From the NCBI GenBank assembly GCA_027486675.1, contig JAIXOQ010000021.1, forward strand, positions 1 to 36,799: a DNA stretch of 36,799 nucleotides. The letters run 5' to 3'. A program made the position numbers and the translations under genes. Within the stretch, counting starts at the first letter, position 1, and each line of letters begins with the position of its first letter. Of the stretch, positions 3,886 to 19,287 are shown in pieces. Source of the DNA: Pseudomonadota bacterium. GTDB lineage: Bacteria; Bdellovibrionota; UBA1018; CAIMNF01. Below the pieces are notes generated by a model. The model made no database searches. It had not been told where the DNA came from and saw nothing but the letters and a program-made list of their open reading frames with translations.

Positions 3886-3957
3886 AGGGCAACAGATCAG
3901 AAGGGATCGCAGTACTTTAAATGCTGTATGGGGGTTCGAATCCCCCTTGCTTAACCA
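3886..3957 (+). tRNA. tRNA-like element with UUA (ochre-reading) anticodon loop
   Basis: The 3' half is convincing. It has anticodon stem 3910-3914/3922-3926 (five pairs, one G-U), loop CTTTAAA with T33 giving anticodon TTA, T arm GGGGG-TTCGAAT-CCCCC (3930-3946), acceptor 3' strand TTGCTTA, discriminator A and encoded CCA (3955-3957). The 5' half is poor: a 4-bp D stem (GATC/GATC) with only a 6-base loop, C at position 8, and an acceptor 5' strand with G-U pairs and a mismatch at the first pair. Alternatively, AAGCAAGGGGG at 3847-3857 pairs perfectly over 11 bp with 3942-3952. It may be a suppressor tRNA, a decayed tRNA or a tRNA mimic. Confidence 0.4.
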
Positions 3958-8117: not shown

Positions 8118-8894
8118 ATGAAAACACATTTGCTCATTACGGCAGTAAACAAATACAATCCCGCTTTTTATGGCGCTGGCAATGACCTGAACGGTTGCAT
8201 TACCGATGCCGAAAAAATGAAGGAACTCTTTATGCAGCAAGACCTGAACAATGGAATTGTGCAGATTTTGTACAATGAGGATTGTCGGAGATCTGAGGTT
8301 ATTGCTTCCCTCAAATACATTGCTTTCAACATGGTTGCCGGTGACCGGCTGATCTGGTTCCATTCAGGGCATGGCAGTTACATGGAAACCGCCAACGGTC
8401 GCGCGACTTGTCGCTGCATGCATGATAACGTTTTATGGGATGCCGAGGTCGTAAAACTATGGAAAGACTTTCCAAAATACTCCTACGTGATCGCCCTGAG
8501 TGACACCTGCTTTTCAGAAAGTAACAGCCGCAATATCATTGGTTTCCCTGGTCACCGGGATAACCCGGATGATACTTACATGAAGTCGCGTAGTATCGAA
8601 TTGCCGCGCATGGCAAAGAAGTCTCCAACTAAGGGTTCTATCCCAATCAAGATTGGATTTCTCGCCATATCGGCATGCACTGCATTTCAGGTAAGTTGGG
8701 AGAATAATAACGGCGGAATTTTCACCCAGTGCATTGAAAAAGCGATGGATAATTCCAAGGGACTGGACTGGGCGATATTGCATGAACGTGTATGCCGCAA
8801 CATGCCACCTGAGTATAATCAGAACCCTATCCTTGAAACTAATTCAGGCCGATTGGGCAAATTGATTCCAGGGTTTTCTGTATACCAAAATTAG
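8118..8894 (+). CDS. Metacaspase-like cysteine protease (peptidase C14 fold)
   Basis: This 258-residue protein matches the caspase p20 plan: a first beta strand and loop LLITAVNKY--A-YGAGNDLNGCITDA, a central strand ending in FHSGHG with the candidate catalytic H85, and LSDTCFS with the candidate catalytic C131. Conserved Asp and Gly residues around them are intact, so it is probably active. It lacks obvious extra N-terminal or membrane domains. It follows the DUF5675 gene by 4 bp. Bacterial caspase-like proteases often act in abortive infection, toxin activation or signalling; in a prophage it could serve exclusion of other phages, host killing or processing of a phage protein. The substrate is unknown. 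Confidence 0.8.
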   Translation: MKTHLLITAVNKYNPAFYGAGNDLNGCITDAEKMKELFMQQDLNNGIVQILYNEDCRRSEVIASLKYIAFNMVAGDRLIWFHSGHGSYMETANGRATCRCMHDNVLWDAEVVKLWKDFPKYSYVIALSDTCFSESNSRNIIGFPGHRDNPDDTYMKSRSIELPRMAKKSPTKGSIPIKIGFLAISACTAFQVSWENNNGGIFTQCIEKAMDNSKGLDWAILHERVCRNMPPEYNQNPILETNSGRLGKLIPGFSVYQN

Positions 8895-11938: not shown

Positions 11939-12154
11939 TTAGAAAAGATATTGATTTCGAGTGAATCTGGTTACATTAATATCCTTGTGTTCATCATCAT
12001 CTTTTTTGTTATTCAAACCACTCCAAAAATCAAAAATTGAATCTTCAGGTTCGTTTAGGTGCTTTGATAAGCTTGTTATAAGTTCTGGGCAGTTTTCAGG
12101 AAGAACGCCCATTTCTTTCAATTCAATTATTACGTTTTGTAAACGAATGTCCAT
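11939..12154 (-). CDS. Small acidic protein on the opposite strand
   Basis: This 71-residue frame starts at an ATG after an A-rich leader and points away from the promoter at 12215-12246. The product is acidic in its centre (EPEDSIFDFW, then KKDDDEHKD). It is an isolated leftward gene between the early operon and the regulator operon, which is the place for a control protein. The shared intergenic region has three AACGTRCA boxes that could be its binding sites. No domain is recognised. Confidence 0.5.
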   Translation of the reverse strand: MDIRLQNVIIELKEMGVLPENCPELITSLSKHLNEPEDSIFDFWSGLNNKKDDDEHKDINVTRFTRNQYLF

Positions 12155-12178
12155 GTTTTTTGATTTTTATTGTCAGCT

Positions 12179-12210
12179 AACGTACATAACGTGCAAAACG
12201 AAACGTGCAA
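12179..12210. promoter_or_regulatory. Cluster of AACGTRCA boxes upstream of the middle promoter
   Basis: AACGTGCAA occurs exactly at 12188-12196 and 12202-12210 (14-bp period), preceded by the variant AACGTACAT at 12179-12187. The boxes end 4 bp before the -33 element of the promoter driving the structured RNA and regulator genes. An activator or repressor binding here would control the switch from early to late expression. Confidence 0.5.
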
Positions 12211-12214
12211 TTGT

Positions 12215-12246
12215 TTTGAACATTAACCAAAAGTGTTTTACATTTG
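12215..12246 (+). promoter_or_regulatory. Bacteroidota-type promoter of the structured RNA and regulator operon
   Basis: TTTG at 12215-12218 and a perfect TAnnTTTG (TACATTTG) at 12239-12246 are separated by 20 bp. The predicted start near 12251 coincides with the first base of the 12-bp closing stem of the RNA, which supports both calls. Confidence 0.7.
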
Positions 12247-12250
12247 TAGC

Positions 12251-12388
12251 GACAACACACCGAATTTATCCTTTGCGGGGTATTTTCAAACAACAAGTTT
12301 CTTAACCAGGGATTAGAATACCCTGTCAGACGAAGGAAGCCGCGAGGCTCCTTAACCTCCTTTCTGCTCCGCAGACCGGTGTGTTGTC
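12251..12388 (+). ncRNA. Structured ~138-nt RNA with 12-bp closing stem and exposed anti-Shine-Dalgarno sequence
   Basis: GACAACACACCG (12251-12262) pairs perfectly with CGGTGTGTTGTC (12377-12388). Inside are hairpins CAGGG/CCCTG (12307-12325), AAGG-A-AGCC/GGCT-CCTT with a GCGA tetraloop (12333-12353), and TCTGC/GCAGA with loop TCC (12363-12375). The linker between the last two contains ACCTCCTTTCTG (12355-12366), the 3' end of Bacteroidota 16S rRNA. CCTCCTTT in it is complementary to AAAGGAGG ahead of the genes at 12835 and 13386. Alternative pairings exist (GGGTATT 12278-12284 with AATACCC 12317-12323; CCCTG 12321-12325 with CAGGG 12399-12403). It has no ORF. It could be a separate sRNA or a cis-acting leader comparable to the P1 c4 RNA. 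Confidence 0.6.
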
Positions 12389-12434
12389 AACGTCCTGGCA
12401 GGGCTTTTTATGCCCGTAACCTTCTAATTTGACA

Positions 12435-12842
12435 ATGAAAGAGGTTCAAAACAAAGACGGCTTTCCCGTCTCAAAAGATGTTTCAATTTATTTTGGAGAG
12501 CCCGGAGGCTTCGGTGGCTCCATCAGTAACCACCTGATGGGATGGAGCGATGAGCAACATGGTTATATCGTGCTTTTGCGCGATCTTGCCTACTGCCTAT
12601 CCGTACATCCCACATTTATCAGAAATGTTCTGCGAGATCAGACCATGACCAAAGGTGTTGAGTGGGTTGATTCGTTTATGACCGACTACGAAAATGGCCA
12701 TCAATACAAGGCCCTTACTCCTGCTGGTCTAAAATTATTCCTTTCCTTGCTCCCGAACGACCACCACTACTTTGACTGCATCCGACAAGCCTGCCGTAAT
12801 CTGGAGAGTATGTTCAATGAAAAAGGAGGGAGCCATGAATAA
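12435..12842 (+). CDS. Bro/KilA-type phage regulator (first of two)
   Basis: This 135-residue protein has a central stretch IVLLRDLAYCLSVHPTFIRN and a C-terminal block YKALTPAGLKLFLSLLPNDH then C-R-C-NLESMF. This follows the Bro-N/antirepressor pattern in which a helical DNA-binding core ends in a LT-xGL-xLxx helix. The start is the ATG at 12435 (a TTG two codons earlier is possible); it has no Shine-Dalgarno sequence. It lies 46 bp after the closing stem of the structured RNA and overlaps the next gene by 8 bp. It may be an antirepressor or the middle/late activator; Mu encodes Mor and C in this part of the genome. Confidence 0.55.
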   Translation: MKEVQNKDGFPVSKDVSIYFGEPGGFGGSISNHLMGWSDEQHGYIVLLRDLAYCLSVHPTFIRNVLRDQTMTKGVEWVDSFMTDYENGHQYKALTPAGLKLFLSLLPNDHHYFDCIRQACRNLESMFNEKGGSHE

Positions 12843-13389
12843 GGTCCAACAAAACAATGGCAAGGCCATGACGCTTTCAGTGAACAATGATCTAAGTGTT
12901 ACCATTATCCAACAAGAAGGTAGCGAATGGCTTATGATGATTAATGATGTTGCTTCAGGCTATGGAGTTAATATTCAAACAATCCATTCACACCTTTCAA
13001 ATCATTCAGATGAGTTTATTGAAGGTGTTCACTTTTTACCTGCTTACGAAAATTTCGTAAGCAGCCAAAGGCGCAAGATGAAGATGCTTACCAAAGCAGG
13101 TGTGATTCGCCTCGGGTTCTTTATTAAAAGTGAACGTGCCAAGATTTTCCGGAACTGGGCCGAACAAATTGTACTGGCAGTTACGGCACCCAATGTACAA
13201 TTGCCCAAGGCTTCGCGCCGCAACCACAACCGACTTAGCAAGGATCGGTTGGTGGAAATCCTTAGCCTGGTGGCTTTGGTGGATGACAAGGAGGTACGCA
13301 CGGCATTGGTGCAAAAACTTATGCCCAACCTGGACATCCCATCTATTCAGTTGCAACTGCCATTGGTGGTAAAAGGAGGTGCAAAATGA
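12835..13389 (+). CDS. Bro/ORF6N-type phage regulator or antirepressor (second of two)
   Basis: This 184-residue protein has an N-terminal domain (residues ~20-110) of Bro-N/ORF6N character: MMINDVASGYGVNIQTIHSH, FIEGVHF, KMLTKAGVIRLGFFIKSERA, KIFRNWAEQIVLAV. The C-terminal ~70 residues are basic then hydrophobic. The ATG at 12835 was chosen because AAAAGGAGGG lies just upstream (12821-12830), a strong Shine-Dalgarno rarely seen in this phage. That site is complementary to CCTCCTTT of the upstream structured RNA. Its stop overlaps the next start (ATGA). It probably acts in the lysis-lysogeny or early-late switch. Confidence 0.65.
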   Translation: MNKVQQNNGKAMTLSVNNDLSVTIIQQEGSEWLMMINDVASGYGVNIQTIHSHLSNHSDEFIEGVHFLPAYENFVSSQRRKMKMLTKAGVIRLGFFIKSERAKIFRNWAEQIVLAVTAPNVQLPKASRRNHNRLSKDRLVEILSLVALVDDKEVRTALVQKLMPNLDIPSIQLQLPLVVKGGAK

Positions 13390-17772: not shown

Positions 17773-19287
17773 TCAGTATTTATTTTTAGATCGCTTTTCC
17801 TGATGAACCGTAATCGGTGCCATCTGGCGCAACTTGTTATTGATAATCCAAACGGCTCCTTCAACAGCATCTGGTCCGTCATCGTGAGCAGGTAAATTGG
17901 GTTCGATTGCCTTGAACTGTTCTTCCAGGCGCTGCATGTGCGGGTCATCCCGTTCATCTTCGTTGAGGATAAGTGATCCGCGTCGGTTGATCGGCTCCAG
18001 GTTGCCCTCGATGCGACTGAACTTATCCGGCTTTGCCCGATCATCCGGGCTTACGGCCAGTGTGCCCTCTGCCTTTTCCATGTTGCGCAGTGCGGGCATA
18101 AATACATCCTGATACCAGGCATCCTGGAATCCGTTGCATTCGACGTAGTTGTACAATTGGCTTCTATCATTGATATATGCCTTGTAGTCATACCACCACT
18201 TCAGCATGGTATTCAGCGTCGTTTGTTCCAGCCTGGCCTTAATGATGTAGTAATCGCCGTTAAGTTCGCCAACCAATGGAATGGCCTTGAAGTCATTGGT
18301 GCGGCTGTTTTTGTAACTCGCATCACAGTACGCAACCAAAAACCGGAACTTATTCAAGGGTGGCACTTTACCGTATTTAATATCCCGGAAAACAGATCCC
18401 TCATTGATCGGGTTATTGAAATACTCCTTTTGCCCGGAGGCATAGGAGATTTTCGATAGCATGTAATTGACCTCGGCAGCGCTGTAACGCTCTTTCCAAC
18501 TGGGGTTGCCCTTTTTGTCCAGGATATTGATTTGCTCGAAATCATCCGCTTTTTTGCTGGCTCTTACAACAATGCCATCTTTGGCGATGATGTTTCCAAC
18601 AATCACGAAGCGCTTTCGCCCTGATATGGACATGGTAGGCCAAAGTGCCTGTTCAATCCAGTCCCACTTCTTTTTCAGCCGTACCGGGTTGCGGGCTTCT
18701 TCATCGGTGTCTATATCATCGATGAGGATAAAGTCTGGACGCTTTTCTTCGTTGCGGCTACCGCGCGGTGATTGACCAGATCCGAGCGCCCTGAACGAGC
18801 AGCCATCTGCTGTGATAAACTTGCCGACCTCCCAACCACGCCAAGACTTTTGTTGTCCAAAATCATGCATGATCCTTGGATTGCTTTCCAACTGGATCAT
18901 CATGGGCATAAGCAACTCAGAGGCATTATCGTAGGAGTGCGATACCAGCAGCATGTTGAAAAGCCGACCATTAAACTTTTCAAACAGGGGAATAAACAAA
19001 CCAGCCGTGACTGATTTGGCATGTTCGCGCGCCCAGGCACGAACGATGTATATCTTATCGGAAGCGGCAATTTTCTTAGCAAAGTTTAAATGGAACTTTG
19101 CAAATGGAGCCGTTGCGTAATTGGGAAAATAGTACTGGCAAAATGCTTCAAAGTTCCCGAGCAGTTTTTTGATACGGGCTTGCTTTTCCTTATCCGTTTC
19201 ATTGAATGGAACGGGAATATCTCGCTCAACCGATTTTCGGTAGGCTTCCCAGCGCTGCATGGTTTGCTTATCCGTTATCTGGCTCAT
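17773..19287 (-). CDS. Terminase large subunit (Mu gp28-like)
   Basis: This 504-residue protein has an adenine-binding/Walker A-like region IVRAWAREHAKSV (residues 81-93), Walker B FILIDDID (186-193 with D190-D191) and an RNase H-like nuclease domain starting at VAYCDASYKNSRTND (D322). It ends with the C-terminal signature DDGPDAVEGA near residue 475. It cuts and translocates DNA into proheads; in Mu-like phages it starts from the left-end pac site and packages flanking host DNA. Its start overlaps the small-subunit stop (ATGA). Confidence 0.93.
   Translation of the reverse strand: MSQITDKQTMQRWEAYRKSVERDIPVPFNETDKEKQARIKKLLGNFEAFCQYYFPNYATAPFAKFHLNFAKKIAASDKIYIVRAWAREHAKSVTAGLFIPLFEKFNGRLFNMLLVSHSYDNASELLMPMMIQLESNPRIMHDFGQQKSWRGWEVGKFITADGCSFRALGSGQSPRGSRNEEKRPDFILIDDIDTDEEARNPVRLKKKWDWIEQALWPTMSISGRKRFVIVGNIIAKDGIVVRASKKADDFEQINILDKKGNPSWKERYSAAEVNYMLSKISYASGQKEYFNNPINEGSVFRDIKYGKVPPLNKFRFLVAYCDASYKNSRTNDFKAIPLVGELNGDYYIIKARLEQTTLNTMLKWWYDYKAYINDRSQLYNYVECNGFQDAWYQDVFMPALRNMEKAEGTLAVSPDDRAKPDKFSRIEGNLEPINRRGSLILNEDERDDPHMQRLEEQFKAIEPNLPAHDDGPDAVEGAVWIINNKLRQMAPITVHQEKRSKNKY

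Follow-up and report, generated by a model that had tools for sequence, protein, structure and literature searches.

The window, by which we mean the whole 36,799-nucleotide stretch of DNA analysed here, corresponds to positions 1-36799 of a contig in a 2.7-Mb genome and carries a Mu-like (transposable) phage, as indicated by a Mu portal protein (PF06074, 1e-69) and a Mu F protein, together with PHROG matches to a transposase and a DNA transposition protein. In this phage, a promoter and a structured leader precede a 135-aa ORF that overlaps the beginning of a bro-N gene (stop codon of the ORF at 12840-12842, ATG of bro-N at 12835). Anti-repressor PHROGs are hit by the protein downstream of the leader, with phrog_2127 in 15 of 19 members; the protein is called antirepressor-like here, a designation that it owes to its family name only. 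The features of the locus are as follows.

12215..12246, + strand: Bacteroidota-type promoter, TTTG-N20-TACATTTG, read directly; same place relative to the stem in the related loci L009 and L089
12251..12262, + strand: 5′ arm of stem P1, GACAACACACCG (seqA-like), predicted RNA 5′ end; perfect complement of 12377-12388
12321..12329, + strand: X, which pairs with X′ (12395-12403), crossing stem P1
12335..12351, + strand: hairpin H2 with a GCGA loop (GUGA in L009 and L089); pairs invariant in the three sequences
12364..12374, + strand: hairpin H3, CUGC-UCC-GCAG; one U-A to U-G change among the three sequences
12377..12388, + strand: 3′ arm of P1 (seqB-like, putative antisense strand); 12382-12390 complementary to 12429-12437
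12395..12409, + strand: X′ (12395-12403), then C and TTTTT; terminator-like, predicted 3′ end of a short RNA
12418..12446, + strand: weak hairpin, AACCUU/AGAGGUU, whose loop holds the start codon (12435)
12429..12437, + strand: T, the putative target segment at the start codon (seqC-like), which pairs with the P1 3′ arm
12435..12842, + strand: 135-aa ORF between the leader and the antirepressor-like gene; no Pfam or PHROG family
12835..13389, + strand: Bro-N antirepressor-like protein (Pfam PF02498, 3.8e-08; PHROG anti-repressors)

A sequence-only reading of this DNA had placed a structured RNA at 12251-12388, closed by a perfect 12-bp stem and beginning at a Bacteroidota promoter. Both elements are present as described: TTTG at 12215-12218 is followed by 20 nt, TACATTTG at 12239-12246 and four bases, after which the stem begins, and this stem is the top helix of its region. 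The energy evaluation which that reading had suggested also bears it out, the 138-nt fold (−53.1 kcal/mol) being better than all 200 shuffles (mean −31.7, sd 3.7; z −5.73). Three further hairpins had been described, and H2 (with its GCGA loop) and H3 are indeed kept in L009 and L089; the third, GGGGUAUUUU/GAAUACCC, is not, three of its pairs breaking in L009 as read from the alignment. Because CCCUGUCAG of this third hairpin can pair with 12395-12403 downstream, the RNA probably reaches ~12409, past the previously reported end at 12388, and because X/X′ crosses P1, the two helices together would form a pseudoknot. No likely ORF lies inside the RNA, as had been stated; a 114-aa GTG frame at 11961-12305 overlaps it, with nothing in its favour. 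The X/X′ stem, the complementarity between the 3′ arm and the start region further downstream, and the antirepressor context go beyond the earlier description.

Several other features of the phage were recorded. At the left end lies an HTH repressor-like gene (445-975, − strand; Pfam HTH_3, PHROG repressors), the product of which is a possible target of the antirepressor-like protein. The early region encodes a caspase-domain protein (8118-8894, + strand; Peptidase_C14, 2.8e-20) that has no PHROG match. tRNA-like sequences (Rfam) occur upstream of the leader in the window (3886-3954, + strand) and in L038 (2815-2884), L051 (3876-3949) and L065 (3978-4037); ARAGORN called no tRNA in the window. 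Directly after the T-run, a five-codon ORF (ATG CCC GTA ACC TTC TAA, 12410-12427, + strand) is also in frame in L009 (MPATF) and L089 (MPTTF), and the stem of the start-codon hairpin explains part of this conservation. Inside the RNA, CCUCCUUUCU (12356-12365, + strand) is kept in L009 and has one change in L089; we take it to be identical to the 3′ end of Bacteroidota 16S rRNA, and it is complementary to AAAGGAGG, which precedes bro-N at 12835.

Three covarying pairings upstream of bro-N genes

Searching with the Bro-N protein identified a single IMG/VR contig, L009, whose bro-N gene is likewise preceded by this RNA. An alignment of the window and L009 proteins then yielded 50 loci in IMG/VR, and a larger alignment (A4) yielded 47 loci in one-per-species genomes and 72 in IMG/VR. 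Leaders in the 50- and 47-locus sets were chosen by eye: 27 were kept from the former (L033 counted as L009; duplicates L055 and L061 and variant L044 left out, and 20 loci in which no leader could be seen put aside) and 14 from the latter (duplicates L083, L084, L087 and L090, variants L101 and L105, and 27 further loci put aside), with the close twins L052 and L053 counted separately. New contigs of the 72-locus set were tested in two steps, the 13 best-matching ones, reduced to 11 by dropping L158 and L160 (identical to L157), and then 11 weaker ones; start codons were set automatically in these later sets. Other routes were less productive. DNA searches of relatives and phage records returned only short matches, judged to be chance; a bro-N search of 55 genomes of the order recovered only the window's own genome; and two IMG/VR pattern scans (5 and 18 stretches) gave one true relative, L014, which is the contig of L009.

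Among the named hosts of leaders are Flavobacterium branchiophilum, Flavobacterium geliluteum, Pedobacter sp. BS3 (L039/L084), Winogradskyella psychrotolerans, Winogradskyella undariae, Maribacter sp. ACAM166 (L043/L087) and Epilithonimonas hispanica, and other leaders come from MAGs; by record titles, leader phages occur in Flavobacterium relatives, Bacteroidales, Saprospiraceae and Chitinophagaceae. Within the stretch examined, 36 of the 44 other leader or variant loci encode a relative of at least one of nine window proteins from the transposition, early or head modules. The contig of L088, titled as a Patescibacteria MAG, carries a leader and relatives of the window phage proteins; misbinning of a contig from a Bacteroidota phage is the likelier explanation. 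The 135-aa ORF had no relative in IMG/VR or among the 44 other loci, and in loci other than the window the leader adjoins bro-N directly; descent of this ORF from a Bro-N duplication was considered and rejected (hhalign probability 0.75%).

The leaders share a common order upstream of bro-N, namely the promoter, the 5′ arm of P1, X, one or two hairpins, the 3′ arm of P1 and X′, the last often with a T-run (at least 4 T within 10 nt of X′ in 21/42 leaders), followed by a weak hairpin whose loop contains the start codon. In an alignment-free helix list, P1, X/X′ and the 3′ arm/start region pairing all rank among the top seven helices at 20 of 29 loci, L053 having been left out of this scoring. 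The coincidence of promoter and closing stem, noted in the window by the sequence-only reading, recurs in the relatives, where 31 of 42 leaders have a strict −7 box (TAnnTTTG) whose end lies 2-6 nt ahead of the base that opens the stem, as compared with 65 of 21,000 random positions.

To evaluate covariation, the longest Watson–Crick match within each locus was compared with that obtained after swapping loci, using windows fixed to the start codon. For the 3′ arm against the start region, own matches averaged 8.89 versus 5.22 swapped in the 28 discovery loci and 8.29 versus 4.96 in the 14 genome loci; the corresponding values were 9.96 versus 5.85 and 9.57 versus 5.64 for the two arms of P1, and 8.43 versus 5.50 and 7.71 versus 5.65 for X and X′ (8.19 versus 5.52 over the 42 loci). 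For each pairing in each set, and for each over all 42 leaders, 0 of 10,000 permutations did as well. The start-codon hairpin gave 6.83 versus 5.69 over the 42 loci. Control stretches further into the gene (+18..+50 and +50..+82) were not significant (lowest 758/10,000), and in 21 of 29 loci the U of AUG is the first base of the match between arm and start region. Kinship among loci, it can be argued, raises the swapped matches and hence works against the test.

The eleven better-matching later contigs, which were uninspected beforehand, gave concordant values for arm against start (7.27 versus 5.49; 1/10,000), P1 (7.45 versus 5.83; 2/10,000) and X/X′ (7.64 versus 5.78; 1/10,000). By reading, seven of them carry the leader (L139, L155, L156, L157, L167, L170 and L171), L137 and L148 are ambiguous, and L151 and L153 are without one. 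The 11 weaker-matching contigs yielded no signal on their own (arm:start 4.45 versus 4.95; 9,891/10,000), and the feature therefore belongs to the closer bro-N relatives. All 22 new contigs together gave 5.86 versus 5.15 for arm:start (39/10,000), 6.55 versus 5.86 for P1 (89/10,000) and 6.27 versus 5.35 for X/X′ (1/10,000); without L170, whose leader is that of L104, the counts were 115, 154 and 3 of 10,000, respectively. As background, 33 usable loci of 47 put aside were scored, near-identical ones being retained. These gave 6.15 versus 5.56 for arm:start (37/10,000) and 6.42 versus 5.66 for X/X′ (1/10,000), with no signal for P1 (4,972/10,000); a weak background therefore exists, and part of the X/X′ signal is not leader-specific.

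Individual comparisons illustrate the same behaviour. L104 and L167, whose leaders resemble each other, have GACTGT or GACTGA as the 5′ arm, ACAGTC or TCAGTC as the 3′ arm and ATGACTGTC or ATGACTGAC as the codons, such that one change is matched threefold (5′ arm, 3′ arm and start region) and alters one amino acid. Covariation across related phages had been suggested as a check on the closing stem, and in the window, L009 and L089 all 12 pairs form, three having changed on both sides, one on one side and none being broken. The start region follows the arm in these three sequences (GACAA/UUGUC, GCGAA/UUCGC and GCAAA/UUUGC), with 25 of 27 cells of the arm:start helix paired and two pairs changed on both sides, and X/X′ varies in one pair only; shuffle controls on three sequences are weak (11 to 31 of 500 for the stem, 31 to 54 of 500 for arm:start). 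Stem covariation and promoter position across relatives thus support the earlier suggestion of a functional RNA, and we consider the RNA in the window to be real and very probably functional. That related phages keep the pairing pattern with different letters points to an RNA switch over the following gene.

Two further patterns were noted among the loci. An inverted repeat overlapping the promoter, TTTGCCCCTGA...TCAGGGGCAAA, is visible in several loci and was considered as a competitor of P1; it was dropped because its swap support was weak in the discovery set (96 of 10,000) and lacking both in the genome set (9,657 of 10,000) and for all 42 loci together (1,041 of 10,000). This repeat spans the −7 box and a site ~30 nt downstream in L049 (5811-5853), and occurs also in L009, L041, L057 and L076. 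In the variant leaders of L044, L101 and L105, the antisense arm is instead complementary to the bases that immediately precede the start codon (8, 7 and 11 Watson–Crick pairs).

RNA-type mismatches and relative helix strength

The three matching segments could in principle be DNA operators, that is, three phage-repressor sites (direct, inverted and direct) changing together with repressor specificity. Such sites would differ in sequence between phages and match within one, as is observed, and one copy does lie at the predicted transcription start. Operators would be expected to show equal numbers of G-U- and A-C-type mismatches. Both types were counted, scored alike, in the best helix of fixed windows, helices individually unchecked. 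The best P1 helices of 42 loci comprise 603 Watson–Crick pairs, 36 G-U, 6 A-C and 20 others (p 2.8e-6), and the X/X′ helices contain 31 G-U against 7 A-C (p 1.2e-4); no such bias was found in the start hairpin (5 versus 4). In addition, P1 frequently extends several base pairs beyond the shared core. Both observations argue against operators, an explanation that we now regard as very improbable.

The distribution of wobble pairs also distinguishes the two arms. U stands in the 5′ arm for 33 of the 36 G-U pairs of P1, and the arm:start helices are almost purely Watson–Crick (402 pairs, with 2 G-U, 8 A-C and 12 others). From the G-U bias in P1 and the near-pure arm:start pairing it follows that the match between 3′ arm and start region is nearly letter for letter, and that the 5′ arm resembles an RNA copy of this region weakened by wobble pairs. 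A comparison of shared positions gives 18 cells with G-U in P1 and a Watson–Crick pair at the start, as against 9 of the opposite kind, four of which belong to the window and L009; the element lists behind these and other counts contain some wrong assignments, for example in L037, L046, L088 and L103. As a duplex, P1 equals or exceeds arm:start in 39 of 42 loci (mean −19.7 versus −12.7 kcal/mol; best helices of fixed windows, again individually unchecked), such that something must open P1. In the window, the arm:start pairing is modest, with a run of 7 Watson–Crick pairs and a duplex energy of −8.4 kcal/mol. Nested folding of 35 leaders, 7 of the 42 loci with badly assigned arms being omitted, gave arm:start a mean probability of 0.06 in cis, with L065 and L121 as exceptions, and thus offers no support for passive closing of the start codon in cis.

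A pure cis switch or attenuator, in which no RNA works in trans and P1, X/X′ and arm:start represent alternative states chosen by a ligand, a protein or the rate of transcription, was also weighed. Several features would suit such a device: X/X′ crosses P1, the T-run after X′ occurs in half of the leaders (21/42), and the hairpins of the interior are retained inside subfamilies. From one subfamily to another, by reading, the interior changes, unlike a ligand-binding core, and no Rfam riboswitch or leader family was matched in the window or, at curated thresholds, in 12 relatives. On this evidence we judge a pure cis switch to be unlikely.

A proposed relationship to the C4 and c4-2 RNAs

The sequence-only reading could name no RNA family for this element, which is correct for the window: none of the Rfam families attains its threshold at this place, and the four hits with E up to 10 are far below theirs. 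A riboswitch, 6S RNA, ribozyme or retron was likewise set aside as unlikely, with no Rfam match in the window and, by reading, no reverse transcriptase in the ORF list. The statement does not extend to the relatives, which match Rfam c4-2 (RF02944) at the same place. With matches placed by contig coordinates, 14 of 45 records have a c4-2 match in the leader with E up to 10; E is below 0.001 for 11 of them, and three lie over the cut-off of 41 bits (L047, L095 and L107); these comprise 9 of 29 records (L034, L039, L041, L043, L045, L047, L058, L059 and L060) and 5 of 16 genomes (L086, L095, L099, L101 and L107). L039 matches the full length of the model at 40.6 bits, and the variant leader L101 matches at E 4.9e-7; weak matches are those of L059 (E 0.024), L086 (0.094) and L099 (3.5). 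The window record (G000), L009 and L089 have no match at E up to 10. The position in the window is linked to c4-2 through L034, which belongs to the same phage group (portal 72% identical; product of 17773-19287, taken for the terminase, 80% over 163 aa) and matches at E 9e-4. In control genomes, c4-2 matches occur in 2 of 14, none over the cut-off. Matches elsewhere than at the leader were found in G127, G128, G135 and at a second place in G132; one strong match away from the bro-N locus is G132:C140:22203-22276 (66.4 bits).

The c4-2 model spans X to X′ with an inner hairpin, without the 5′ arm or the start region, and by reading the window has the same architecture, an X stem that encloses a hairpin and is closed by X′ and then U. 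Our own model of the group, R2, places the entire architecture at 12314-12409 in the window with 6 bits only, and a wider R2 search did not list the window and missed L009, L089 and other subfamilies. R2 found the leader in only L039, L053, L103 and L034 of 21 sources, and only L103 (E 6e-6) was new, L039, L034 and a near twin of L053 having been in the training set. Common descent of the window RNA and c4-2 was therefore not significant by profile. The C4 model (RF01695, cut-off 45 bits) was exceeded by 0 of 18 records and had no match in G000. We file the window RNA as a divergent variant of the C4/c4-2 kind that belongs to neither Rfam family.

In the part of the c4-2 literature listing considered here, we found no functional account and none concerned with Bacteroidetes; a target for c4-2 may already have been proposed in its source literature. 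The Rfam 15 paper mentions a structure update for c4-2, and the words antirepressor and sRNA are absent from a publication that applies RNA-seq to a transposable phage of Bacteroides.

Antisense RNAs of this kind are best studied in enterobacterial phages, where the 5′ end of C4 is formed by processing and the phage P1 layout consists of a1b1, a′b′ and a2b2 segments. C4 is listed for Proteobacteria and phages (PMC2864571), the phage P1 operon c4-icd-ant requires the C4 antisense RNA for repression of the antirepressor ant (PMC8198154), and the P4 CI RNA is complementary to one sequence upstream (seqA) and one downstream (seqC) (PMC4825925). The leader has the layout of P4 seqA-CI-seqC, an antisense segment between upstream and downstream complements: in the window, one segment is complementary to sequences on both sides, and the downstream target lies at the translation start before the antirepressor-like gene. 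The two systems differ in that P4 acts on transcription termination, whereas the downstream target of the leader is a start codon.

A proposed model for the antirepressor operon

The anatomy, the three covarying pairings, the RNA-type mismatches of P1, the promoter position and the antirepressor-like neighbour are observed, and the account of them that we find most convincing, and hold to be probable, is a leader RNA of an antirepressor operon working like phage P1 C4 and the P4 CI RNA. RNA polymerase would start at the first base of P1, and many transcripts would end at X′ and the U-run to give a short RNA of ~155-160 nt, as the T-run in 21/42 leaders suggests; read-through would produce an mRNA for the 135-aa ORF and, by overlap, bro-N. 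The 3′ arm of P1 would then serve as an antisense strand against the start region of the first gene. While held by the wobble-weakened 5′ arm, it would leave the gene translatable; when released, or when the short RNA is abundant, it would pair with the start region, antirepressor synthesis would be shut off and the prophage would stay quiet. Release might come about by 5′-end processing, as in C4, or through a helper protein. We infer that these steps (termination, release of the arm, repression as the direction of control, and action in trans) take place as described. Repression by the free 3′ arm at the operon start is suggested by the layout, which resembles those of P4 and phage P1, and by the overlap of the 135-aa ORF with bro-N, which resembles icd-ant and orf45-anrP. 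A point against this account is that X and the arm are ordered like X′ and the start, which prevents a single short RNA from forming both pairings in colinear fashion.

The antirepressor of Gifsy-1 is anrP, and its control provides a rival precedent in which the outcome is reversed. There, as described in PMC4825925, the short RNA IsrK and a read-through mRNA arise from one promoter and adopt alternative structures, one sequence being reused as short RNA and mRNA leader, and orf45 is a small ORF coupled to the next gene. By analogy, the read-through mRNA of the window would be silent through internal pairing, and a short RNA from the same leader would activate the antirepressor in trans; the gene order is alike (leader with terminator-like end, small ORF, antirepressor-like gene). 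Activation by IsrK involves pairing with the 3′ end of orf45, whereas the window arm covers the start codon itself, such that binding should block rather than open. The mRNA is also not predicted to silence itself in cis, and the small ORF that the analogy depends upon is without a relative in the 44 other loci, where the leader meets bro-N directly. For these reasons we think an activating RNA improbable, and favour the repressing antisense strand of the C4 and CI type.

With regard to its consequences, this reading provides a concrete proposed target for a c4-2-like RNA, the antirepressor start region, together with a mechanism with testable letters, in a subtype that escapes the Rfam model; it also provides a signature for a decoy strand, the G-U bias with U on one arm. 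A further and more doubtful possibility is that every phage has its own RNA address of ~6-15 nt, present in three copies (as the decoy, the antisense strand and the first antirepressor codons), that decides which antirepressor mRNA a lysogen silences. Were this the case, codons 2-4 would drift freely to follow the RNA, incoming and resident antirepressor mRNAs could both be silenced, and the wobble-weakened decoy would set the threshold for induction; an RNA code, and not a repressor protein, would then determine how these Bacteroidota phages are grouped by immunity. If the RNA sets lysogeny, Bacteroidota prophages may be inducible or silenceable by a short RNA.
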